This document shows, piece by piece, positions 2,980 to 16,387 of a stretch of 64,000 nucleotides of DNA. Under the pieces are notes generated by a model. It was not told the DNA's origin and ran no database searches. It was given only the letters and a program-made list of their open reading frames with translations. A program made the position numbers and the translations under genes. Source of the stretch: Mycobacterium sp. SMC-2 (GTDB lineage Bacteria > Actinomycetota > Actinomycetes > Mycobacteriales > Mycobacteriaceae); the NCBI RefSeq assembly GCF_025263485.1, contig NZ_CP079863.1:2914001-2978000 (forward strand). The letters are read 5' to 3'. How positions within the stretch are numbered: position 1 is the first letter of the stretch; the number at the start of each line of letters is the position of its first letter.

Positions 2980-4368
2980 ATGAAACGGCTTTCGAGCGTT
3001 GATGCGGCGTTTTGGTCGGCCGAAACCGCGGGCTGGCACATGCACGTGGGCGCACTTGCGATTTGCGACCCGAAGGACGCGCCCGAGTACAGCTTTCAGC
3101 GGCTGCGCGAACTGATCATCGAGCGGCTGCCCGAGCTGCCGCAGCTGCGCTGGCGGGTCGCCGGGGCGCCGCTCGGGTTGGACCGGCCGTGGTTCGTCGA
3201 AGACGAGGAGCTGGACATCGACTTCCACATCCGGCGCATCGCCGTCCCGTCGCCAGGGGGTCGCCGCGAGCTCGAGGAGCTGGTGGGCCGGCTGATGTCC
3301 TACAAGCTGGACCGCTCCCGGCCGCTGTGGGAGATGTGGGTGATCGAGGGCGTCGAGGGCGGCCAGGTCGCGTCGCTGACCAAGATGCACCACGCCATCG
3401 TCGACGGCGTCTCGGGCGCCGGCCTGGGTGAAATCCTCTTGGACGTCACGCCGGAACCCCGCCCGCCGCAACGGGATACAGTGGGATCGCTGGTGGGATC
3501 GAAGATTCCGGGCATCGAACGGCGGGCGGTGGGCGCGCTGATCAACCTCGGCGTCAAGACGCCCTTCCGCATCGCCCGGCTCGTGGAGCAGACCGTGCGC
3601 CAGCAGGTCGCCGCGCTGGGCGTGAGCGGCCGGCCCCCGCGTTACTTCGAAGCGCCCAAGACCCGGTTCAACGCGCCCGTGTCGCCGCACCGGCGGATCA
3701 CCGGCTGCCGCGTCGAGCTGGCCCGGGCCAAGGCCGTCAAGGACGCCTACGGCGTCAAGCTCAACGACGTCGTGCTGGCGCTGGTGGCCGGCGCGGCCCG
3801 CGAGTACTTGCAGAAGCGCGGCGAGCTGCCCGCCAAACCGCTGATCGCCCAGATCCCCGTCTCCACCCGCACCGATGACAACAAGGACGACGTCGGCAAC
3901 CAGGTGAGCTCGATGACGGTGTCGCTCGCCACCCACATCGACGATCCGGCCGAGCGGTTGCGGGCCATCCACGAAAGCACCCAGAACGCCAAGCTGATGG
4001 CCAAGGCGTTGTCGGCCCACCAGATCATGGGGCTGACCGAGACGACGCCGCCGGGGCTGCTGCAGTTGGCCGCCCGGGCCTACACGGCCAGCGGGTTGTC
4101 GCGAAACCTGGCCCCCATCAACCTGGTTGTCTCCAATGTGCCGGGCCCGCCGTTCCCGTTGTACATGGCCGGCGCCCGACTGGCTTCGCTGGTGCCGCTC
4201 GGGCCGCCCGTCATGGACGTCGCGCTGAACATCACCTGCTTCTCCTACACCGACTATTTGGACTTCGGCTTCGTGACCACGCCCGAGGTGGCCAACGACA
4301 TCGACGACATGGCCGACCGCATCGAGCCGGCGCTCACCGAGTTGGAGAAGGCCGCCGCGCGGGAGTGA
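2980..4368 (+). CDS. Wax ester synthase/diacylglycerol acyltransferase (WS/DGAT) family protein
   Basis: 462-aa member of the mycobacterial Tgs/WS-DGAT family, equivalent to Rv1425. These enzymes transfer an acyl group from acyl-CoA to diacylglycerol or a long-chain alcohol, making storage lipid. The catalytic motif HHAIVDG is at residues 137-143 with both His and the Asp intact. The C-terminal motif [18 protein letters not shown] is also present. ATG 2980 follows a G-rich ribosome-binding stretch. It is followed by a copy of a dispersed repeat and then by the sterol cassette, so it marks the left edge of the accessory block. Confidence 0.92.
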
Positions 4369-4375
4369 GCGGCTC

Positions 4376-4406
4376 GCGGCGATCGCGAGCGCGGCGAAGC
4401 CGGGCG
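4376..4406. repeat. Single partial copy of dispersed GC-rich repeat
   Basis: 31 bp directly after the WS/DGAT stop are identical to the core of the 54-bp tandem unit at 16206-16363, read in the opposite orientation, and closely match the 57-bp unit at 44093. The shared core starts GCGGCGATCGCGAGCGCGG. The copy sits at the left edge of the sterol-gene block. See the tandem copies at 16.2 and 44.1 kb. Confidence 0.8.
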
Positions 4407-4509
4407 AAGCGTCGTCGTGCCATGGCCGACGCCGAGCCCGGCTGCGGGTGAACTCCGGAACAGATTTGGGACTTTCTGCCCTAGCGCGGGCCCGCAGTGA
4501 GGCCATAAC

Positions 4510-4523
4510 TAGAACGAGTTACA
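4510..4523. promoter_or_regulatory. KstR operator upstream of hsaA-like gene
   Basis: TAGAACGAGTTACA fits the mycobacterial KstR consensus TnnAACnnGTTnnA exactly. KstR is the TetR repressor of cholesterol catabolism, released by cholestenoyl-CoA intermediates. The site is about 100 nt upstream of the GTG of the hsaA-like gene, the first gene of the hsaA-cyp125 pair. Confidence 0.8.
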
Positions 4524-4577
4524 GTGCGCGGGTTATTGCCTCTGTACAGCAAAAACAATAAAATACTCGACGCTAGT

Positions 4578-4591
4578 TGCAACGTGCTCTA
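4578..4591. promoter_or_regulatory. Possible second, weaker KstR-like site
   Basis: TGCAACGTGCTCTA differs from TnnAACnnGTTnnA by one base (GCT for GTT) and is framed by CTAG on both sides. It is 35 nt upstream of the hsaA-like start, where a repressor would cover the transcription start. It is a one-mismatch match only, so it remains a suggestion. Confidence 0.4.
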
Positions 4592-4625
4592 GTCTTGTGA
4601 TCGAGTGCACGTCTGGAGGTGAGCA

Positions 4626-5810
4626 GTGACGTCCATTCAAGAAATCGGTGCCCAGTCCGTGTTGGCCGCCATCGACGATCTTTTGCCCAAGCTGCGGCAG
4701 CGGGCACAGGAAACCGAGGAACTGCGCCGGCTGCCCGATGCCACCGTCAGCGAGCTCCAAGAAATCGGCTTCTTCCGGCTGCTGCAGCCGGGGCAGTGGG
4801 GCGGGATGCAATGCGATCCAACGGTGTTCTTCGAGGCCGTCCGGCGCCTGGCCAGTGCGTGCGGGTCTACCGGGTGGGTGGCGTCGATCCTCGGCGTGCA
4901 CAACTGGCACGCGGCGCAGTTCGACCAGCAGGCCCAGGAGGACGTGTGGGGCAAGGACACGGGCGTGCGGATCTCCTCGTCATACGCCCCGATGGGCGCC
5001 GGTCAGGTGGTCGACGGTGGTTACCTGGTCAATGGATCGTGGAACTGGTCGTCGGGTTGCGACCACGCCACGTGGACCTTCGTCGGTGGCCCGGTGATCA
5101 AGGACGGCCAGCCGGTCGACTTCGGCAGCTTCTTGATCCCGATAAGCGATTACCGCATCGACGACGTCTGGCATGTTGTCGGCCTGAAGGGCACCGGCAG
5201 CAACACCTTGATAGTCAAGGACGTGTTCGTGCCCCGGCACCGGTTCCTGTCCTACAAGTCGATGAACGACCACACCGCCGGCGGGTTGGCGGTCAACACC
5301 GACCCGGTTTACAAGATGCCTTGGGGCACTATGCATCCCACCACGATCACAGCCCCCATCGTCGGCATGGCCTACGGCGCCTACGAATCCCACGTCGAGC
5401 ATCAAGGCCAGCGGGTGCGCGCCGCGTTCGCGGGCGAGAAGTCGAAAGACGACCCCTTCGCCAAGGTGCGTATCGCCGAGGCGGCCAGCGATATCGACGC
5501 TGCGTGGCGACAGCTGATGGGCAACGTCCGTGATGAGTACTCGTGTCTGGTGGCGGGTCAGGAGGTCCCGTTCGAGCTGCGGGCCCGGGCCCGTCGTGAC
5601 CAGGTGCGTGCCACCGCCCGCGCCATCGCCTCGATAGACCGTCTATTCGACGCCTCGGGTGCCACCGCGTTGGCCAATAGTGCTCCGCTGCAACGGTTCT
5701 GGCGCGACGCACACGCCGGCCGCGTGCACGCGGCCAACGATCCCGAGCGGGCCTACATGATCTTCGGTAACCACGAGTTCGGGCTGCCGCCCGGCGACAC
5801 GATGGTCTGA
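4626..5810 (+). CDS. hsaA: HsaA paralogue: flavin-dependent 3-HSA hydroxylase, oxygenase component
   Basis: 394 aa, the same length as H37Rv HsaA (Rv3570c), which I recall sharing long stretches such as PMGAGQVVDGGYLVNGSWNW and the C-terminal GNHEFGLPPGDTMV. HsaA belongs to the acyl-CoA-dehydrogenase-fold monooxygenases. It uses reduced flavin from HsaB to hydroxylate the phenol 3-HSA to a catechol during cholesterol A/B-ring breakdown. The GTG start follows a good ribosome-binding site, GGAGGTGAGCA. No hsaB reductase is adjacent, so a partner encoded elsewhere would be needed. It is 18 nt from the P450 gene, probably co-transcribed, and lies behind a KstR box. I take it as an additional copy because the canonical hsa cluster is in another genome region in mycobacteria; that second copy is not visible here. 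Confidence 0.88.
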   Translation: MTSIQEIGAQSVLAAIDDLLPKLRQRAQETEELRRLPDATVSELQEIGFFRLLQPGQWGGMQCDPTVFFEAVRRLASACGSTGWVASILGVHNWHAAQFDQQAQEDVWGKDTGVRISSSYAPMGAGQVVDGGYLVNGSWNWSSGCDHATWTFVGGPVIKDGQPVDFGSFLIPISDYRIDDVWHVVGLKGTGSNTLIVKDVFVPRHRFLSYKSMNDHTAGGLAVNTDPVYKMPWGTMHPTTITAPIVGMAYGAYESHVEHQGQRVRAAFAGEKSKDDPFAKVRIAEAASDIDAAWRQLMGNVRDEYSCLVAGQEVPFELRARARRDQVRATARAIASIDRLFDASGATALANSAPLQRFWRDAHAGRVHAANDPERAYMIFGNHEFGLPPGDTMV

Positions 5811-5828
5811 ATCGCAGAGGAGCCACCG

Positions 5829-7079
5829 ATGACCTGCCCCCACCTTCCCCCCGGCTTCGACCCGACCGACCCGGACATCTACGCCAAGCGCTTACCCGTC
5901 GAGGAGCTCGCCGAGCTGCGCCACAACGCGCCCATTTGGTGGTGTGACCAGCCGATCGGCAAGGGTGGCTTCAACGACGGCGGCTTCTGGGTGGTGACCA
6001 AGCACAAGGACGTGAAGGAGGTTTCGCTGCGCAACGACGTCTTCTCCAGCTGGCTCAACGGTGCCATTCCGCGCTTCGCCGACGACATGAAGCGCGAAGA
6101 CATCGACCTGCAGCGGTTGGTTCTGCTCAACATGGATCCCCCGCAGCACACCCGGCTGCGGAGGATCATCTCGCGCGGATTCACGCCGCGCGCCATCGGC
6201 AGGCTGCGCGACGAGCTCAACGAGCGTGCGCAGGCCATCGCCAAGGCCGCCGCCGCCGGGGGTTCCGGCGATTTCGTCGAGCAGGTCGCGTGCGAACTGC
6301 CGCTGCAGGCCATCGCCGGGCTGCTCGGTGTGCCCCAGGAGGACCGCGGCAAGCTGTTCCGGTGGTCCAACGAGATGACCGGCGCCGAGGACCCCGAGTA
6401 CGCGCACATCGATCCCAAGGCGTCCTCGGCGGAGGTGCTGGCCTACGCCATGAAAATGGCCGAGATCAAGGCCGAAAATCCCGGCGACGACATCGTTTCC
6501 ACGCTGCTGCAGGCGGATATCGACGGCGAGAAACTCTCCGACGACGAGTTCGGCTTTTTCGTCATGATGCTGGCGGTCGCCGGTAACGAGACCACCCGCA
6601 ATTCGATCACCCAAGGCATGATGGCGTTCGTCGACTTCCCCGACCAGTGGGAGCTGTACAAGAAGGAGCGCCCGGAGACTGCGGCAGACGAGATCGTCCG
6701 GTGGGCCACCCCGGTTACCGCGTTCCAGCGCACCGCCAACCAGGACACCGAACTGTCGGGGGTGACGATCAAGAAGGGCCAGCGGGTGTTGATGTTCTAC
6801 CGCTCAGCCAACTTCGACGAGGACGTCTTCACCGATCCGTTCAAGTTCGACATCTTGCGTAACCCCAACCCGCACGTCGGATTTGGCGGCACCGGCGAGC
6901 ACTACTGCATCGGCGCCAACCTGGCCAAGTTGACGATCAACCTCATGTTCAACGCCATCGCCGACCACATGCCGGACCTCACGCCCATTTCGAAACCGGA
7001 GCGGATCCGGTCGGGGTGGCTCAACGGCATCAAGCACTGGCAAGTCGACTACACCGGCAAGTGTCCAATCGCCCACTGA
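5829..7079 (+). CDS. cyp125: CYP125-family cytochrome P450 (steroid C26/27 monooxygenase)
   Basis: 416-aa P450 very like H37Rv CYP125 (Rv3545c), which oxidises the cholesterol/cholestenone side chain at the terminal methyl. The I-helix oxygen-activation motif AGNETT is at 251-256, the ExxR pair at E288/R291, and the haem ligand Cys360 in FGGTGEHYCIG. It lacks the longer N-terminal extension I recall in Rv3545c and starts MTCPHLPPGFDP. ATG 5829 follows GAGGAG. Second gene after the KstR box, 18 nt behind hsaA. No ferredoxin or reductase gene is adjacent. Convergent with kshA, with a perfect inverted repeat across its 3' end. Confidence 0.9.
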   Translation: MTCPHLPPGFDPTDPDIYAKRLPVEELAELRHNAPIWWCDQPIGKGGFNDGGFWVVTKHKDVKEVSLRNDVFSSWLNGAIPRFADDMKREDIDLQRLVLLNMDPPQHTRLRRIISRGFTPRAIGRLRDELNERAQAIAKAAAAGGSGDFVEQVACELPLQAIAGLLGVPQEDRGKLFRWSNEMTGAEDPEYAHIDPKASSAEVLAYAMKMAEIKAENPGDDIVSTLLQADIDGEKLSDDEFGFFVMMLAVAGNETTRNSITQGMMAFVDFPDQWELYKKERPETAADEIVRWATPVTAFQRTANQDTELSGVTIKKGQRVLMFYRSANFDEDVFTDPFKFDILRNPNPHVGFGGTGEHYCIGANLAKLTINLMFNAIADHMPDLTPISKPERIRSGWLNGIKHWQVDYTGKCPIAH

Positions 7080-7109
7080 ATGGCGCGACGAATCCGCTTG
7101 CCGGTGTAG
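7049..7109. terminator. 13-bp perfect inverted repeat across the cyp125 3' end
   Basis: CTACACCGGCAAG (7049-7061, inside the last codons of cyp125) is repeated as its exact reverse complement at 7097-7109, after a 35-nt loop containing the stop codon. It lies between the convergent cyp125 and kshA genes, so it could serve as a bidirectional terminator. There is no T-tract. It could also be a scar from rearrangement, since the downstream arm copies coding sequence. Confidence 0.55.
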
Positions 7110-7126
7110 GCAATTGACGCGGCCTC

Positions 7127-8272
7127 CTATTGGGGCTGCTCTATCTTGGGCCGCAGATTCTCTTCCACCTCGGCGCGCCAGTGCTCGTTCGCGGCGGTGG
7201 TGTCGACCTCATACTCGAAGCGGTCGGTCATCTGTGGCGTGACGTCGGCGGCATCCTCATAGAACTGCTGATACCAGCGGCGCAGCTGATAGACCGGGCC
7301 ATCCTCTTCGACCAGCAACGGGTTTTCGATCCGAGTCTTGTGCTTCCAGATCTCGACATCCTGCAGGAAGCCCATGCTGACGCCATCGGTGAACGCTTTG
7401 GACAGCCTCTCGGTTGCGGCCTCGTCCATGCCCTCGGGCTTCCGCACGATGATGCCCCACTGCAGCATGAAGGAGTCCTGCGTGACCGGGTAGTGGCAGT
7501 TGACGAGGATCGACTCCACTTTGTAGCCGCCGTAACTGTTGTGTAGCCAGTTGATCATGAACGACGGGCCGAAGTAGGAGGCCTCGGAATCCAGAGTTTG
7601 TTCACCGGTGTAGTGCGAACCGCCGAGCAGCACATCGGGCCGGCCGACGGTGCGCAGGTATTGCGAAGCGATATGGCCCTCGAAGACGTTCTTGAAGTAC
7701 GTCGGGAAGCCGTAGTGGATGTAGAAGAAGTGCGCCATGTCGACGATGTTGTCGACGATCTCGCGGCAGTTCGAACCCTCGATGAGCTCACTGCGCCACC
7801 GCCAGTCGGTCCATGCGGGGCTAGCGGCCTCGGGAATGTCGGGGATCTGTAATTCCGGTGACGGCAAGTTGCCTTCGTGGTCGTGCCAGACGAACAACAG
7901 ACCGTTGTGCACCTCGGTAAGCCAAGAGCGGGTGCGTGCCATTTTTGGTGTGCGCTTGGCGTACGGCACCTGCTTGCACCTGCCGTCGCCGCCCCACCGC
8001 CAGTCGTGAAACGGGCATGCGACCGTGTCGCCCTTGACCATGCCCTGCGACAGGTCTCCGCCCATGTGCCGGCAGTACGCGTCGAGGACTCGCAGATTGT
8101 GGTCGGTGTCGGCGAAGACGACCAGCTTGGTGCCGAAGATGTTGACCGGGTGTGGCTTGCCGTCGAGGAAGTCCTTGGCCACACCCAGGCAGTGCCACCC
8201 GCGGGCGAACCGGGTCGGCAACGTTCCGACGTCTATTTCCCGGACGCCGACCCCAGCGGTGTCGATACTCAC
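7127..8272 (-). CDS. kshA: KshA paralogue: 3-ketosteroid-9-alpha-hydroxylase, Rieske oxygenase component
   Basis: 381-aa Rieske non-haem iron oxygenase closely resembling KshA (Rv3526), which 9-alpha-hydroxylates ketosteroids so that ring B opens. The Rieske ligands are C67-x-H69 (CRHMGGDL) and C86-x2-H89 (CPFHDWRW). The mononuclear iron region DMAHFFYIH supplies H181 and H186, with a later Asp in LQDVEIWKH. The start is GTG at 8272. A KstR box lies 32 nt upstream. The electron-donor partner KshB is not encoded nearby. It is convergent with cyp125, so the cassette has two separate promoters. Presumably a paralogue of a copy in the main cholesterol region. Confidence 0.9.
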   Translation of the reverse strand: MSIDTAGVGVREIDVGTLPTRFARGWHCLGVAKDFLDGKPHPVNIFGTKLVVFADTDHNLRVLDAYCRHMGGDLSQGMVKGDTVACPFHDWRWGGDGRCKQVPYAKRTPKMARTRSWLTEVHNGLLFVWHDHEGNLPSPELQIPDIPEAASPAWTDWRWRSELIEGSNCREIVDNIVDMAHFFYIHYGFPTYFKNVFEGHIASQYLRTVGRPDVLLGGSHYTGEQTLDSEASYFGPSFMINWLHNSYGGYKVESILVNCHYPVTQDSFMLQWGIIVRKPEGMDEAATERLSKAFTDGVSMGFLQDVEIWKHKTRIENPLLVEEDGPVYQLRRWYQQFYEDAADVTPQMTDRFEYEVDTTAANEHWRAEVEENLRPKIEQPQ

Positions 8273-8303
8273 TCCGCGCCTCCACTAGCTGACTAGTCCG
8301 AAC

Positions 8304-8317
8304 TAGAACACGTTACA
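8304..8317. promoter_or_regulatory. KstR operator upstream of kshA-like gene
   Basis: TAGAACACGTTACA is an exact match to TnnAACnnGTTnnA, placed 32 nt upstream of the kshA GTG start. The flanks contain further CTAG-type symmetric elements (8293-8306 and around 8380). With the box at 4510 it puts both divergent ends of the cassette under the same repressor. Confidence 0.8.
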
Positions 8318-8483
8318 GTTTCCGCCCACCAGCCGTGCAGGAATGCAGGCTAAAGCCACTAAATATGTGACTTATTGCCCTAGTCGAACTAGCCTTGCTC
8401 GATCTCGCGCCCTGAGCTGATCAGTGGCCGGGATGCACACCACGCCCGCGCGGAGCCGGGCGCTTGCGGCTCGCGGCCGGACG

Positions 8484-9848
8484 TCAATCGGGTTCGTCGT
8501 CGTCGCTGTCGTTGAGGAGTCGTTCGGGGTGGTGGAAGTTGTTGGTGCGGGGTTGGCCGTGGTCGAGGTGGGGTGGTGGGAGCCATTCGGTTTCGCCTTT
8601 GGCGTTGGTGCGGGTGGTCCAGCCGTTTTCGGCGAGCCGGTTGTCGGGGCCGCAGGCCAGGGTGAGGTCGTCGATGTCGGTGCGGCCGGTGGCTTGCCAG
8701 CCTGTGATGTGGTGGACCTGGCTGTGGTAGGCCGGGGCATCACAGCCCGGCTTGGTACAGCCACGATCCTTGGCATACAACATGATCCGTTGCGCCGGGG
8801 AGGCCAGCCGTTTGCTGTGATACAGCGCCAGGGGTTTGCTCTGCTCAAAGATGGCCAGGTAGTGGTGGGCGTGGCCGGCCCAACGGATCACATCGGACAT
8901 GGGCACCAGGGTGCCCCCGGCGGTCAGGGCCTTGCCGGCGGCCGCCTCGAGATCCTGCAGTGTGGTGGTGACCACGATCGACACCGGCAGCCCGTTATGT
9001 TGGCCCAGTTGTCCGGAGGCCAGCAGGCCGCGCAGCCCGGCCAGCAAGGCGTCGTGGTTGCGCTGCGCCGGGGAGCGGGTGTCGCGGCGCACCGCGTCTT
9101 GGTCGGGGGTGGCGTCGACCACCGGGGCTTGGTCGTCGGGATTACACACCCCGGGGGCGGCCAGCTTGGCCAACATCGCCTCGACGGCGGCCCGCAACTC
9201 CGGGGTCAGCAGGCCGCTCAGGCGGGACATGCCGTCGAATTCCTGGGCGCCCAGGGTGATGCCGCGTTTGCGGGCCCGCTCGGCGTCGCTGAAGTCCCCG
9301 TCGGGGTGCAGCCAATCCATGATCCGCTGGGCGTATTTGGCCAACTCGTCGGGCCGGTATCCGGTGGCTTTGGCGGCCAGGTCGGCCTCGGCGGCTTGGC
9401 GGGTGAACACGTCCACCGCGGCGGGCAGCTGGGCAAAAAAGCCGCGGATCACTTTGATGTGCCCGTCGCCGATCAGCCCGTCGCGTTGCCCGGCCGCGGT
9501 CGCGGCCAACAGCGGCGCCAACGGTTCCCCGGTCAACGCCCGGCGCTCCCCAAGATCGCGGGCTTCCCCGAGGCGCCGGGCGGCCTCGCCGGTGGTGATG
9601 CGCAACCGGTCGGCCAACCCGCAGCGCAGCGACCCACCCAACTCCTGCGCGCTGGCCTGCGCATCGAGTTGGTTGATCAACGCATGCTGGGGGGCGCGCA
9701 GCCGGCGATAAGCGCGTTCCAGGCGCTCCAGGGCGCGCAACCGCTCCGCGGTGGTCAGCACGTCAAAGGACAACGCGCACAGCCGATCCACGTCGTCGTC
9801 GAGCGCGTCGAAGACCTCAACGATCTCCTCACGACTGCTCGCACCCAT
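8484..9848 (-). CDS. DUF222/HNH endonuclease protein (13E12-repeat family)
   Basis: About 454 aa from ATG 9848 (MGASSREE); the frame is open 60 nt further upstream, but this start fits the family best. It has the N-terminal DUF222 helical region (about 20-330) followed by an HNH nuclease domain with zinc-binding Cys residues ([21 protein letters not shown]) and a C-terminal N/D-rich tail. This is the mycobacterial REP13E12-type family, present in many genome copies; in M. tuberculosis some copies host phage attachment. The real activity is unproven. It separates the sterol cassette from lipO and may mark a mobile or recombination-prone junction. The C-terminal tail DSDDDEPD is acidic. Confidence 0.88.
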
Positions 9849-9967
9849 GCCCCCAACCCTACGAACACCCACCGACAAAAAAGACCATCTTGTGACCACA
9901 GAAGCCAAAGTGACACAAGGGATTACAGAGGACTGAAAGCCCCACCCTAGTGGCCACCGCGAGGCGG

Positions 9968-11230
9968 CTAGTCGCGATCGGGCGGGTTCGTCGCGTACAC
10001 CCAGGACAGGAACCGCGCGACGGCCTCCGCGGATCGATGCGCCCGCGGGGAACTGAAGATGTCGAAGGCGTGTTGCGCGCTGGGCAATTCGGCGTAGGCG
10101 ACCGGGGACTTGGACACCGCCCGCAGTTCTTCGATGAACTCCTGGGCCTCGCCGACGGGGATCAGCGAATCGTCGCGGCCGTGCAACACGAAGAACGGCG
10201 GCGCGTCGGCCCGCAGTCGCCGGATAGGCGAGGCATCGACGTAGACGTCACGGTGCGACGCGAATCCCCGCTTCACCACGAATTTTTCGAGCAGCGAGAC
10301 GAATTCGGGCCGGCCCTCGCCGTCGGTGGAGAACCAGTCGTAGCGGCCGTAGATCGGGACCGCGGCCGCCACCGACGTGTCGGCGTCTTCGAAGCCCGGC
10401 TGGAATTGCGGGTCGTTGGGGGTGAGCGCGGCCAGCGCGCACAGGTGTCCGCCCGCCGAGCCGCCGGTGACCGCGACGAAGTCGGGGTCACCGCCGTAGT
10501 CGGCGATGTTCTCTTTGACCCACGCCAGCGCCCGTTTGACGTCGACGATGTGGTCGGGCCAGGTGTGGCGGGGGGAGACGCGATAACCGATCGACACGCA
10601 CACCCAGCCGCGGGCGGCCAGGTGGCTCATCAGCGGGTAGGCCTGCGGCCGGCGCATCCCGATCATCCAGGCGCCGCCCGGAACTTGCAGCAACACCGGC
10701 GCCTTGGCGTCGCGCGGCAGGTCGCGGCGGCGCCAGATGTCGGCGAGGTTGGCGCGGCCGTTCGGGCCGTAGGACACCACATTCGTCTTCTCGACGTACC
10801 GCCGGCGCGCCACGGTGTTGGCCAGCGGCAGGCTGCGCCGTCCGCTGCGCGTGGGCTTGGTGCGGGGCAGCTTGTGCAGCGCCTCTTCGTAGTCGTGGCC
10901 GAGCTGCTCGCGCAGGCCGGCCTCCAGCACGGGGCCCGGGGTGGTGACGCCGCGGTAGCGGATCACCGCCAGGACGGCCCACGACGCGGCCGTCATGGCC
11001 AGCGCCGCCTTGCCGCGCCGTCCAGAGAAGTGGCCGCGCCGCCCGCGCCGCAGCGCGTCCAGCAGCGAGACGGTGAAGTAGACGCCCGGCACCTCCGACG
11101 TCGGCCAGCCGAACCAGAAGACCAGCACGGTGCTGTAGCCCTTGCGGGCCAGCGGCCGTAATCCGTTGGCGGCGTTGGCCAGTTCCAATGCGGCGCGCGC
11201 CAGAGGCCGGGGGCGTACGAGGCGACTCAT
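9968..11230 (-). CDS. lipO: Alpha/beta hydrolase, LipO-type esterase
   Basis: 420-aa carboxylesterase-like protein equivalent to Rv1426c (LipO). The N-terminal part is hydrophobic, with a likely membrane segment around [16 protein letters not shown]. The nucleophile elbow is GGSAGG, and the acid and histidine lie in HGRDDSLIP and SAQHAFD, completing a Ser-Asp-His triad. The oxyanion segment reads PGGAW where the hormone-sensitive-lipase family usually has HGGG. The ATG at 11230 overlaps the fadD12 stop (TGATG). Third gene of an acyltransferase-fadD12-lipO operon that suggests lipid remodelling. Substrate unknown. Confidence 0.9.
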
Positions 11231-12861
11231 CAGCCGTTGACCTGAGATTGCAGTTCGTTGCGCAGGATTTTGCCGGTGCTGCCGCGCGGGAGTTCGTCCA
11301 GCACAGTGATCTCGCGGGGCACCTTGTAGTTGGCCAGGTTTTGCCGGACGTGCTGTTTGAGGGTATCGGGCGTGGCCCGGGCGCCCGGGCGCAACACCAC
11401 GAACGCCGCCAGGCGCTGCCCGTACTGCTCGTCGTCGACGCCGATCACCGCGGCCTCGGCCACGTCGTCGTGTGCCGCCAGCGTCTTCTCCACCTCGATC
11501 GGATAGACGTTCTCGCCGCCGGAGACGATCATCTCGTCGTCGCGGCCGACCACGAACAACCGGCCGGCCTCGTCCAGGTAGCCGACGTCGCCCGACGACA
11601 TGAACCCGGCGTGAAAATCCTTGGTGGTGCCCGACGTGTAGCCCTCGAATTGGGTGTCGTTGCGGACGTAGATGGTGCCCACCTCGCCGGTCGGCATCTC
11701 GTTGAAATTCTTGTCCAGGATCCGGATTTCGGTCCCGCCTGCCGCCCGCCCCGCGGTGTCGGGCGCCGCGCGCAGGTCTTGCGGGGTAGCGGTGGCGATC
11801 ATGCCGGCCTCGGTGGCGTTGTAGTTGTTGTAGATCACGTCGCCGAACTCGTCCATGAATGCGGTGACGACGTCGGGCCGCATTCGGGAACCGGATGCCG
11901 CCGCGAATCGCAATGACTTGCAGCTGTACCGCTTTCGCACCGCGGGCGGCAGCTCCATGATGCGGTCGAACATCACCGGCACCACCGCCAGGCCGGTGGC
12001 GTGGTGCCGGTCGATGAGGTCCAGCGTCGCCTCCGGGTCGAACATGCGCCGGGTGACCACCGTGCACGCCATCGACGCCGCGAAGATCAACTGGGAAAAG
12101 CCCCAGGCGTGGAACATCGGCGCGACGATCACGATCGTCTCCTCGGCACGCCACGGCGTGCGGTCCAGGATGGCCTTGAGCGTGCCGACGCCGGCGTTGC
12201 CGCCAGTTTGGTTGGCGCCCTTGGGTGTTCCGGTGGTGCCGGAAGTCAGCAGGATCATCCTGCCCTTGCGGCCCGTGAGCTCGGGCCGTTGGCCGGTGTG
12301 ATCGGCGATGAGCTGCTCCACCGTCGCCTCGCGCTGGCGGTCGGAGGTCCAGGCCAGGATGCGGGTGGCGTCCGGTTTGTCGGCCAGCGCGCGGTCCACG
12401 GTTTCGGTGAATTCCTCGTCGTAGACGACGGTGTCGACGCCTTCGCGGTTGACGACCTCGGCGAGCGCCGGACCGGCGAACGACGTGTTGAGCAGCACGA
12501 CGTCGGAGCCGAGCCGGCTGGCGGCCACCACCGCCTCGACGAAGCCACGGTGGTTGCGGCACATGACCCCGACGACCCTCGGCCGGCCCGCGGGCAGGTG
12601 CTGCAGCGCCGCGGCGAACGCGTTGATCCGGTCGTCGAGCTCCCGCCAGGTCAGTGTGCCGAGCTCGTCGATCAGGCCGGGCCGGTCCGGGCAGCGTTGT
12701 GCCGCACTGGCGAAGCCCACGGTCATCCCCAGGCCCTCGCGGCGCATGGCCGCGGCGATCTTGAGGTAGCGGTCGGGTCGCATCGGCGCGATCATGCCGG
12801 CGCGCCTCAGGGTGGTGATGACGCCGAGAGCTTGGTTGATGGGACGCAACAGAGAAGCCAC
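11230..12861 (-). CDS. fadD12: Fatty-acyl-CoA synthetase FadD12
   Basis: 543-aa member of the ANL adenylating superfamily, equivalent to Rv1427c. It activates a fatty acid with ATP to acyl-AMP and then acyl-CoA (or acyl-AMP only; not decidable here). The P-loop-like motif LTSGTTGTPKG lies at about residue 180. The adenylate-binding YNNYNATE and the hinge motif VVGRDDEMIVSGGENVYP follow, and the catalytic lysine is in RGSTGKILRNEL near the C-terminus. GTG start 3 nt after the stop of the preceding acyltransferase gene; TGATG coupling to lipO. Confidence 0.92.
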   Translation of the reverse strand: MASLLRPINQALGVITTLRRAGMIAPMRPDRYLKIAAAMRREGLGMTVGFASAAQRCPDRPGLIDELGTLTWRELDDRINAFAAALQHLPAGRPRVVGVMCRNHRGFVEAVVAASRLGSDVVLLNTSFAGPALAEVVNREGVDTVVYDEEFTETVDRALADKPDATRILAWTSDRQREATVEQLIADHTGQRPELTGRKGRMILLTSGTTGTPKGANQTGGNAGVGTLKAILDRTPWRAEETIVIVAPMFHAWGFSQLIFAASMACTVVTRRMFDPEATLDLIDRHHATGLAVVPVMFDRIMELPPAVRKRYSCKSLRFAAASGSRMRPDVVTAFMDEFGDVIYNNYNATEAGMIATATPQDLRAAPDTAGRAAGGTEIRILDKNFNEMPTGEVGTIYVRNDTQFEGYTSGTTKDFHAGFMSSGDVGYLDEAGRLFVVGRDDEMIVSGGENVYPIEVEKTLAAHDDVAEAAVIGVDDEQYGQRLAAFVVLRPGARATPDTLKQHVRQNLANYKVPREITVLDELPRGSTGKILRNELQSQVNG

Positions 12862-14467: not shown

Positions 14468-16387
14468 ATGGGATTCATGACCCCGGACCTTCCCGACGTC
14501 GACCCCGAGAGTTGGCCCGGTCTGCCCCGATCGAGAAGGCGACAGATCATGACCCGGCACTGGGTTGAGCATGGCTTCGGCTCGCCGTACGCGGTCTATC
14601 TTTTCTATGTCGTCAAGATCGCCCTGTACGTCGTGGGCGCCGCCGCGGTGATCTCGCTGACGCCCGGGCTGGGCGGGCTCGGGCGCATCGCCGACTGGTG
14701 GACACAGCCGATCGTGTATCAGAAGGTGGTCATCTTCACGCTGCTGTTCGAGATCCTGGGATTGGGCTGTGGATCGGGTCCGCTGACCGCCCGATTCTGG
14801 CCGGTGTTCGGCGGCTTCTTGTATTGGTTGCGGCCCAACACAATCCGGCTGCCGCCGTGGCCCGGCAGGGTCCCGTTCACCGGTGGTGACAACCGCACCC
14901 TCGTCGACGTGGCGCTATACCTGGTCGTGCTGGTCTCGGGCGCCTGGGCTTTGCTGTCGCCCGGGCGGGGCGGGCCGGTGACCGCCGGCGGCGACGTCGG
15001 CCTGATCAATCCCGTTCTCGTGGTGCCGACCATCGTCGCGCTGGCCCTGCTGGGGCTGCGCGACAAGACCGTCTTCCTCGCGGCGCGCGGCGAACACTAC
15101 GGGCTGACCCTGCTGGTGTTCTTCTTTTCGTTCACCGACCAGATCGCCGCCTTCAAGATCATCATGCTGGCGCTGTGGTGGGGGGCGGCGACGTCGAAAC
15201 TCAACCACCACTTCCCGTACGTTGTGGCGGTCATGATGAGCAACAGTCCGCTGTTGCGCAGCAAGGCGTTCAACTGGTTCAAGCGCAGGCTCTACCTCGA
15301 CCCGGTCGACGACCTGCGCCCGTCGTGGATTCCGAAGGTGATGGCCCATGTCGGCGGGACGACGGCCGAATTCCTAGTGCCCTTGCTGCTGGTCTTCTTC
15401 GCCGACGGGCACCGGTGGGCGTGGTTCCTCATCGGCTTCATGGTCCTCTTCCACCTCAACATCACCTCGACCATTCCGATGGGAGTGCCCCTGGAGTGGA
15501 ACGTGTTCTTCCTCTTCTCGCTGTTCTACTTGTTCGGGCACTATGCCGGTGTCACCGCCACGGGGCTACGCTCGCCGCTGCTGCTGGCCATCCTGATCGC
15601 CGCGCTTGCGGTGGTCCCCATCGTGGGAAACCTTTTCCCCAAGCAGGTTTCGTTCCTGCCCGCGATGCGCTATTACGCTGGAAACTGGGCCACCAGCACC
15701 TGGTGCCTGCGCGCGGGTGCCGAGGAGAAGATGGACGCCAACATCACCAAGGCCTCGGCGCTGGTGCCCAAACAGCTTGCCCGGCTTTACGATCCGAGCA
15801 CCGCCGAGATGATGATCGACAAGTTGATGGGGTGGCGCTCCATGCACACCCACGGGCGGACGCTCAACGGCCTGGTGGCCCGCGCCCTGGACGGCATGAA
15901 CGAGGCGGACTACAAACTGCGTGACGGCGAGATCATCGCCGGACCGCTGATCGGGTGGAACTTCGGCGAGGGCCACCTGCACAACGAGCAGTTGCTCGCG
16001 GCGGTGCAGCGGCGCTGTCAGTTCGAGGACGGGGACGTCCGGGTCATCATCCTGGAAAGTCAGCCGATCCACGTCCAGCGCCAGGAGTACCGCATCGTCG
16101 ACGCGAAAACCGGCCTGATCGAAGAGGGTTACGTCGACGTGGAAAGCATGCTGGCCCGTCAGCCATGGCCGGAGCCGGGCGACGAGTACCCGGTCCACGT
16201 CACCGATGGCGGCGACCCGCCGCGCCCGGCTTCGCCGCGCTCGCGATCGCCGCGCCTCGATGGCGGCGACCCGCCGCGCCCGGCTTCGCCGCGCTCGCGA
16301 TCGCCGCGCCTCGATGGCGGCGACCCGCCGCGCCCGGCTTCGCCGCGCTCGCGATCGCCGCGGACCACCCGGCGCGCCGATCGATGA
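14468..16387 (+). CDS. DUF3556 integral membrane protein with C-terminal repeat extension
   Basis: 639 aa from ATG 14468 (an earlier ATG is at 14456). Equivalent to the Rv1431 membrane protein (DUF3556), with multiple hydrophobic segments between about residues 35 and 400 (for example VVKIALYVVGAAAVISL and FLIGFMVLFHLNI) and a soluble C-terminal domain. No enzymatic function is known. The last ~60 residues are three in-frame copies of an 18-residue sequence rich in Pro, Arg and Ser (DGGDPPRPASPRSRSPRL). It is produced by a 54-bp DNA repeat, and the native end is probably near YPVHVTDG. ATGA overlap with the next gene, so translation is coupled. I do not recall this tail in H37Rv. Confidence 0.85.
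   Translation: MGFMTPDLPDVDPESWPGLPRSRRRQIMTRHWVEHGFGSPYAVYLFYVVKIALYVVGAAAVISLTPGLGGLGRIADWWTQPIVYQKVVIFTLLFEILGLGCGSGPLTARFWPVFGGFLYWLRPNTIRLPPWPGRVPFTGGDNRTLVDVALYLVVLVSGAWALLSPGRGGPVTAGGDVGLINPVLVVPTIVALALLGLRDKTVFLAARGEHYGLTLLVFFFSFTDQIAAFKIIMLALWWGAATSKLNHHFPYVVAVMMSNSPLLRSKAFNWFKRRLYLDPVDDLRPSWIPKVMAHVGGTTAEFLVPLLLVFFADGHRWAWFLIGFMVLFHLNITSTIPMGVPLEWNVFFLFSLFYLFGHYAGVTATGLRSPLLLAILIAALAVVPIVGNLFPKQVSFLPAMRYYAGNWATSTWCLRAGAEEKMDANITKASALVPKQLARLYDPSTAEMMIDKLMGWRSMHTHGRTLNGLVARALDGMNEADYKLRDGEIIAGPLIGWNFGEGHLHNEQLLAAVQRRCQFEDGDVRVIILESQPIHVQRQEYRIVDAKTGLIEEGYVDVESMLARQPWPEPGDEYPVHVTDGGDPPRPASPRSRSPRLDGGDPPRPASPRSRSPRLDGGDPPRPASPRSRSPRTTRRADR
16206..16363. repeat. Three tandem copies of a 54-bp repeat inside a coding region
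   Basis: Units start at 16206, 16260 and 16314; the first two are identical 54-mers and the third is cut after about 49 bp. Because 54 is a multiple of 3 the frame is kept. Each unit begins ATGGCGGCGACCCGCC. The reverse complement matches the 57-bp tandem repeat at 44093 at about 40 of 44 core positions and the single copy at 4376 over 31 bp. Copy number is likely variable between strains (MIRU/VNTR-like). Confidence 0.92.

Follow-up and report, generated by a model that had tools for sequence, protein, structure and literature searches.

A 64,000-nucleotide stretch of the Mycobacterium sp. SMC-2 genome (contig NZ_CP079863.1, positions 2,914,001 to 2,978,000; hereafter the window) raises the question of why three genes coding for sterol oxygenases of the HsaA, CYP125 and KshA types should lie between the equivalents of Rv1425 and lipO, and what they would contribute to a genus with a main cholesterol cluster elsewhere. 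Based on family assignments, operator motifs and comparison with relatives, we consider it probable that they form a three-gene oxygenase cassette, with a KstR motif before each of its two transcription units, that is co-induced with the main cholesterol regulon and supplies alternative versions of three oxygen-dependent steps. The elements of this cassette are:

4510-4523, forward strand: exact KstR motif, predicted distal operator of the hsaA-cyp125 unit
4578-4591, forward strand: degenerate KstR-like site with one mismatch, proximal to hsaA
4626-5810, forward strand: oxygenase component of an HsaA-type flavin-dependent monooxygenase (NCBIfam NF045629; PDB match 3afe)
5829-7079, forward strand: CYP125-type cytochrome P450 (PDB match 3ivy)
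7127-8272, reverse strand: KshA-type Rieske oxygenase component (Pfam KshA_C and Rieske; PDB match 2zyl; metal ligands intact)
8304-8317, reverse strand: exact KstR motif, predicted kshA operator

The placing of HsaA-, CYP125- and KshA-like genes between the Rv1425 and lipO equivalents, first made in the initial annotation, was borne out by family models, domains and PDB matches. The HsaA-type protein clears the cut-off of the curated HsaA family in NCBIfam (687.7 bits against 450), and its top PDB sequence match (782 bits) is 3afe, listed as 'Hydroxylase, putative', which we take to be M. tuberculosis HsaA. The best PDB matches of the CYP125-type protein are all CYP125, with 3ivy at the top (782 bits), and no curated NCBIfam P450 model reached its cut-off for this protein. 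The KshA-type protein finds its best PDB match, at 703 bits, in 2zyl, the oxygenase subunit of 3-ketosteroid-9-alpha-monooxygenase; the Pfam domains recovered in the cassette proteins are KshA_C (300.7 bits), Rieske and P450. A spacer of 18 bp separates hsaA from cyp125, the two probably being one operon, and kshA is convergent with cyp125.

We then examined the regulatory sites. The core of the KstR motif, TnnAACnnGTTnnA as given in the available portion of Kendall et al. 2007 (PMC1995591), is present in exact form at 4510 and 8304 before both units, as had been claimed for this locus, with the two copies ending 102 bp and 31 bp, respectively, ahead of the start codons. The window contains four exact matches, against 0.23 expected from shuffles; the remaining two, at 15269 and 52343, lie away from the cassette. 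A KstR matrix built from 16 sites of the main clusters of M. interjectum and genome G327, none of them from any cassette and all themselves chosen by the exact core, likewise ranks 8304 first (31.0) and 4510 second (21.5) in the window, with the site at 4578 scoring 13.7. Two unrelated sites, 15497 (16.0) and 47279 (15.1), KstR-like with one mismatch each and fair matrix scores, also score above the maximum of 14.5 seen in 20 mononucleotide shuffles. A promoter and terminator scan of the DNA found one and three elements, respectively, against 0.6 and 2.3 in shuffles.

Conservation of these sites was traced in relatives. A scan of 396 genomes of the genus, in which the best four candidates per genome were scored and the strongest matches listed, recovered this KshA at 91-96% identity in ten genomes, nine of which have the complete trio with both exact motifs. 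The kshA-side motif is exact in all ten, and the distal hsaA-side motif is exact and in the same place in all nine complete cassettes of relatives. Across the 12 cassette promoters examined, the distal hsaA motif is exact in 11 and the proximal site in none (one to three mismatches). The tenth relative, G201, has kshA alone: the cassette hsaA and cyp125 are missing, and kshA remains with its operator motif (L175, 9348-10535).

The promoters themselves resemble those of the main cluster. Over 94 bp, the window's hsaA promoter can be aligned with the region between the main hsaA and kshB genes in M. interjectum (score 26; mean 8.5 and maximum 15 in 500 shuffles), with both operators in register, such that the 4578 site corresponds to the second operator. 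The main proximal site of M. interjectum has a core mismatch at its first base and retains both half-sites; one half-site is lost in the window (GTT to GCT), and the proximal operator there may have become weaker, possibly leaving the hsaA-cyp125 unit leakier. For kshA, the operator region and the main promoter are similar over 29 bp (score 23; shuffle maximum 18), and the cassette kshA promoter of M. interjectum scores 22 (maximum 15). Upstream of cyp125 there is no similarity to the main cyp125 promoter (score 9; 262 of 500 shuffles as high). Some of these comparisons count against the proposed reading: the kshA match is mostly operator sequence, the same cassette region still reaches 15 when compared with the main hsaA promoter (0 of 500 shuffles as high), and the cassette hsaA promoter of M. 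interjectum scores just 16 against a shuffle maximum of 15. Taken with the comparison of relatives, KstR control of the cassette is nonetheless well supported as a prediction, and we infer that the cassette genes arrived together with their operators. KstR represses its targets until a sterol-derived ligand releases it. At this locus it would bind both operators and hold both units, including hsaA and cyp125 transcribed as one operon, repressed until such a ligand appears.

It could be countered that the cassette is an unexpressed or decaying relic whose motifs are mere leftovers, in keeping with the partial loss in G201 and the imperfect proximal operator in all 12 cassette promoters. The cassette is indeed dispensable in G201, as two of its three genes are lost there, and this counts against the reading favored here. 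However, the reading frames are open, the ratio of nonsynonymous to synonymous divergence (dN/dS) is near 0.1 (means of 0.12, 0.09 and 0.12 against the window for the three genes), and the exact distal and kshA operator motifs are retained, so that we regard a relic as highly improbable.

How, then, does the cassette relate to the main sterol pathway? In relatives a main set exists at another locus, as the initial annotation had supposed: each of the ten has a second, main-type kshA (77-78% identity in the nine for which it is listed) and one main-type hsaA (82-85%), together with further CYP125 copies, the CYP125 matches numbering three to five in all per relative. In M. interjectum kstR and hsaADCB are on a different contig from the cassette, and the KstR, HsaA, HsaD, HsaC and HsaB proteins of this main locus exceed their NCBIfam cut-offs (the KstR equivalog at 334.2 bits, cut-off 280); its kshB and fadE34 neighbours were named by family and position, no model having reached its cut-off. 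Both hsaB (95-100%) and kshB (89-100%) are single-copy in all ten relatives, G201 having in addition one HsaB relative at 43%, and hsaC occurs as one copy at 89-100% along with one or two relatives at 47-50%. Queries with the main-locus kstR, fadE34, kshB, hsaB, hsaC and hsaD found no relative in the window. Because hsaB and kshB are single-copy and the window contains no relatives of the six main-locus queries, only oxygenase components have been added. The earlier description of a second sterol-degradation cassette therefore stands as regards extra copies bearing KstR motifs and falls as regards a second pathway, there being three oxygenase components only, with no reductases of their own, HsaC or HsaD nearby in the window. 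Judged by its gene content, the cassette is an oxygenase-only accessory set, which would depend on the main pathway. We propose that its enzymes borrow the single main-locus partners: HsaB would provide reduced flavin and KshB electrons, and a ferredoxin system would serve the P450. There is precedent in R. rhodochrous, where, according to the available portion of PMC4064121, several KshAs (five) are served by one KshB.

We next considered what the cassette enzymes might do differently, using residue lists for KshA and CYP125 drawn from the accessible parts of PMC4064121 and PMC12429392 and hand-picked rows for the counts. Cassette KshA keeps the cysteine and histidine ligands of the Rieske center, the 2-His-1-Asp iron site and seven of the eight substrate contacts listed there, the eighth being changed by V176I. 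Isoleucine at this position is found in 11/11 cassette rows, in 2/2 rows from the related trios of M. shigaense and a bog metagenome-assembled genome (MAG), and in 3/3 KshAs that neighbor an hsaA in other species, with valine in 18/18 main rows; L189F shows the same split. In CYP125, where most of the listed ligand contacts are retained and I104M is changed, V96A, I104M and M116L occur in 10/10 cassette and 2/2 shigaense/bog rows, with V, I and M in 7/7 main rows. Of these positions, PMC12429392 gives I104 as contacting the ligand and M116 as lining the cavity. Such differences support, and do not prove, a different substrate preference: the altered pockets may favor substrates for which the main copies are less suited, either sterols or intermediates of side-chain breakdown. 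Speaking against this, V96 is absent from the ligand-contact table and the cavity passage of PMC12429392, the parts of that paper at hand, and A96, M104 and L116 are frequent in other CYP125 paralogs; the CYP125 pocket letters may be ancestral rather than adaptive.

Another proposal is one of dosage, in which cassette and main copies share both reactions and substrates and the extra genes merely boost slow oxygen-dependent steps. The identity of operators and catalytic residues, and the retention by KshA of all but one of the contacts listed in the source, are what it would predict. Yet the cassette proteins belong to separate old clades with fixed pocket differences, and a recent copy would be expected to be closer to the main gene than the 76-84% identity that they show to the main M. 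interjectum proteins. We accordingly rate dosage as rather unlikely, and continue to favor alternative enzyme versions.

A further possibility concerns the P450 alone. On the contig with the main hsaA, six of the ten relatives (G327, G242, G252, G229, G044 and G201) have as their CYP125 a distant paralog, 73-75% identical to the cassette CYP125 and of a different clade, which carries two exact KstR motifs 79 bp apart (L205, 1269-2610; also L207, L208, L209, L214 and L215). The outer motif of the pair is identical or almost identical to the operator that other relatives have for their unreplaced cyp125, and the arrangement resembles the replacement of one gene by another that came with an operator of its own. 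The cassette CYP125 might then substitute for the replaced one in the group to which the window belongs. However, in three cassette-free relatives a CYP125 carries the pocket letters seen in the replaced one, and because of these the cassette is not just a stopgap for the replacement; moreover, the four relatives with an unreplaced main CYP125 still carry the cassette, and compensation leaves hsaA and kshA unexplained. We give it very little credence.

Turning to the origin of the cassette, its surroundings are as follows:

2980-4368, forward strand: Rv1425 equivalent
4369-9967: stretch from the Rv1425 stop to the lipO stop (~27 bp in relative G086)
8484-9848, reverse strand: DUF222/HNH gene between kshA and lipO, present only in some relatives
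9968-11230, reverse strand: lipO equivalent

The DUF222/HNH gene, which thus also sits between kshA and lipO, had gone unmentioned in the initial annotation. Further along, ARAGORN called a tRNA-Val on the opposite strand at 12415-12510, inside the fadD12 equivalent, which is probably a false positive. The placement between Rv1425 and lipO is visible for seven of the nine complete trios of relatives; in G044 and G262 a contig end conceals one flank. The lipO of G262 is just 74% identical, and a DUF222/HNH fragment lies at the hsaA end of its cassette. Cassette-free junctions were sampled in 16 genomes picked from the top of the genus KshA scan, two of which gave no match (a second match, L203, was omitted). 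Of these 14 the junction is empty in three (G086, G149 and G016), the stops of Rv1425 and lipO being separated by ~27 bp in G086 and by 5,599 bp in the window; two have a DUF222/HNH gene, three a ~1.1-kb gap and one a ~0.5-kb gap, and in five lipO is outside the fetched stretch. One of the 1.1-kb gaps, when scanned, revealed a gene with weak similarity to nucleases (MTES_1575 under its cut-off, DUF559 at the cut-off). Because its contents vary between nothing, a DUF222/HNH gene, a possible nuclease gene and the cassette, the Rv1425-lipO junction (window 4369-9967; L189-L202) looks like an insertion hot spot.

Beyond the ten genomes the genus scan found three KshAs at 80-83%, the rest being at or below 78% among the matches listed. 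A KshA scan of species genomes, taking the best 80 of 593 loci, showed a linked trio in M. interjectum (L001) and the bog MAG (L002) and a rearranged one in M. chelonae (L012), and the names of the closest CYP125 proteins include M. scrofulaceum, M. europaeum, M. seoulense, M. paraseoulense, M. malmoense and M. interjectum. Related trios occur in the bog MAG and in genome G149, which has the same KshA as M. shigaense; in the stretches examined, neither trio is next to Rv1425 or lipO. In the G149 trio (L177, 5770-10584) an IS481 transposase lies between cyp125 and kshA. G278 (80% KshA) was rejected as a cassette, with kshA alone in 3,000 bases of a 4,920-base contig and a different position in the tree. 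A plasmid origin was likewise rejected, as no plasmid record covers 80% of 4400-8500; the best (55%), from Nocardia farcinica, has hsaA head to head with kshA, then hsaD, hsaC and hsaB, and because of this arrangement is that organism's own ring-degradation locus.

In phylogenetic trees the copies at this locus form single clades, each joined by one database row from an unseen locus, for HsaA (support 100/99), CYP125 (100/98) and KshA (97/92). The CYP125 clade joins the shigaense/bog copies (99/98), and cassette KshA groups with those of shigaense/bog and with the hsaA-neighboring KshAs of M. chelonae, M. houstonense and M. frederiksbergense (88/99), apart from the main slow-grower KshAs. The HsaAs of the shigaense/bog trios group with the main slow-grower HsaAs (94/86), although a single clade for all cassette HsaAs, a group named after seeing the tree, was not rejected by the approximately unbiased (AU) test (p 0.112). 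The KshA and HsaA trees do not favor a single event that duplicated all three genes out of the main cluster. In the Rv1425 tree the 10 cassette loci (G201 included) and the 14 loci without a cassette at the site are intermixed, requiring at fewest five changes, at least four of them forced by well-supported branches; even so, the cassette label clusters more than it does in the bulk of the shuffles, 9 of 500 being as low.

Synonymous divergence (dS) was compared in eight of 11 genomes, the window included (L170, L172 and L175 were omitted for missing flanking or cassette genes). Between the two clades compared, mean dS is 0.346 in the cassette and 0.462 in a set of four flanking genes (15 pairs); the corresponding values are 0.314 and 0.274 within clade A (10 pairs) and 0.310 and 0.327 within clade B (three pairs). 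The gap between clades is largest against Rv1425 (0.588). With whiA and fadD12 (about 0.41) it is small, the kshA values (0.377) scatter widely and the 15 pairs are not independent, all of which reduces its force. The cassette genes have a G+C content of 0.62-0.66, against 0.68-0.73 in the flanks so compared. Because presence is patchy and cassette dS between clades falls below that of the flanks, exchange is suggested, and we hold it likely that the cassette was exchanged between clades. In terms of mechanism, the set would have spread in slow growers by recombination at the Rv1425-lipO junction and not by one duplication in this genome. The earlier notion of paralogs kept under the same repressor thus survives as to the extra copies and their conserved operator motifs, but these do not look like simple in-genome duplicates, having clades of their own and signs of exchange.

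Patchiness can also arise by loss, as the partial cassette in G201 illustrates, and this would allow the trio to descend from one ancestral copying of main-cluster genes and to be undergoing loss now, with no exchange between species. The similarity of its promoters to the main ones and the clustering of the label on the Rv1425 tree are consistent with such a history; the position of cassette KshA outside the main slow-grower KshA group, the lowered dS between clades and the related trios that sit elsewhere in G149 and the bog MAG speak against it, and we deem duplication followed by loss doubtful relative to spread by recombination.

Among known systems the closest is the main KstR cholesterol cluster (hsaA Rv3570c, kshA Rv3526, and Rv3545c, which is presumably its cyp125), with the same enzyme types and operator type and a similar hsaA/kshA promoter layout. 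The cassette differs in its location, its restriction to oxygenase components, the sequence divergence noted above and the position of its cyp125 behind hsaA, the main cyp125 having its own operator. Like the C-19 steroid set of M. smegmatis, which in the available portion of PMC6351609 comprises kstD2, kstD3, kshA2, kshB2, hsaA2, hsaC2 and hsaD2, it provides an additional kshA and hsaA outside the main cluster. That set, unlike the cassette, has its own reductase, dioxygenase and hydrolase; no counterpart of kshB2, hsaC2 or hsaD2 was found in the window with the main-locus queries. M. interjectum contig C43, which has a distant KshA (61%), HsaA (40%) and HsaC (48%) together, might instead carry genes of the C-19 set. 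The kshA-hsaA neighbors of M. chelonae, M. houstonense and M. frederiksbergense, whose KshA groups with cassette KshA and shares I176, differ from the cassette in gene order and in an hsaA of another clade; M. chelonae has a cyp125 as well, as in the cassette, and only there is an exact KstR motif directly upstream of kshA. In M. chelonae (L185, 8020-11885) cyp125, kshA with its exact motif and hsaA adjoin in an order unlike that of the cassette. A second KshA that is induced is known from Mycobacterium sp. VKM Ac-1817D, where, in the accessible text of PMC6593523, kshA_2 (G155_24375) responds 25-fold to phytosterol. It is 67% identical to M. smegmatis main KshA, and the KshAs of the kshA-hsaA neighbors are 68-69% identical to fast-grower main KshAs; judged by these similar identities, kshA_2 may belong to the same lineage. 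In open-licence PMC papers we found none on this trio at Rv1425-lipO.

In light of the above, we tentatively raise the possibility, less probable than co-induced alternative enzymes as such, that the cassette is an oxygenase-swap module, limited to the three oxygen-activating components for side-chain C26, ring 9alpha and ring-A C4 and equipped with KstR operators, that moves between species, uses the resident reductases and regulator, and alters the sterol range of each recipient with no need for a new pathway. Sterol breakdown is relevant to the feeding of mycobacteria in hosts and soil and to industrial steroid making. The matched pairs of main and cassette enzymes have few pocket differences, and close relatives with and without the cassette exist. 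If the proposal is true, a natural unit exchanging nothing but oxygenases, along with their own operators, would show how this pathway shifts its substrate range.

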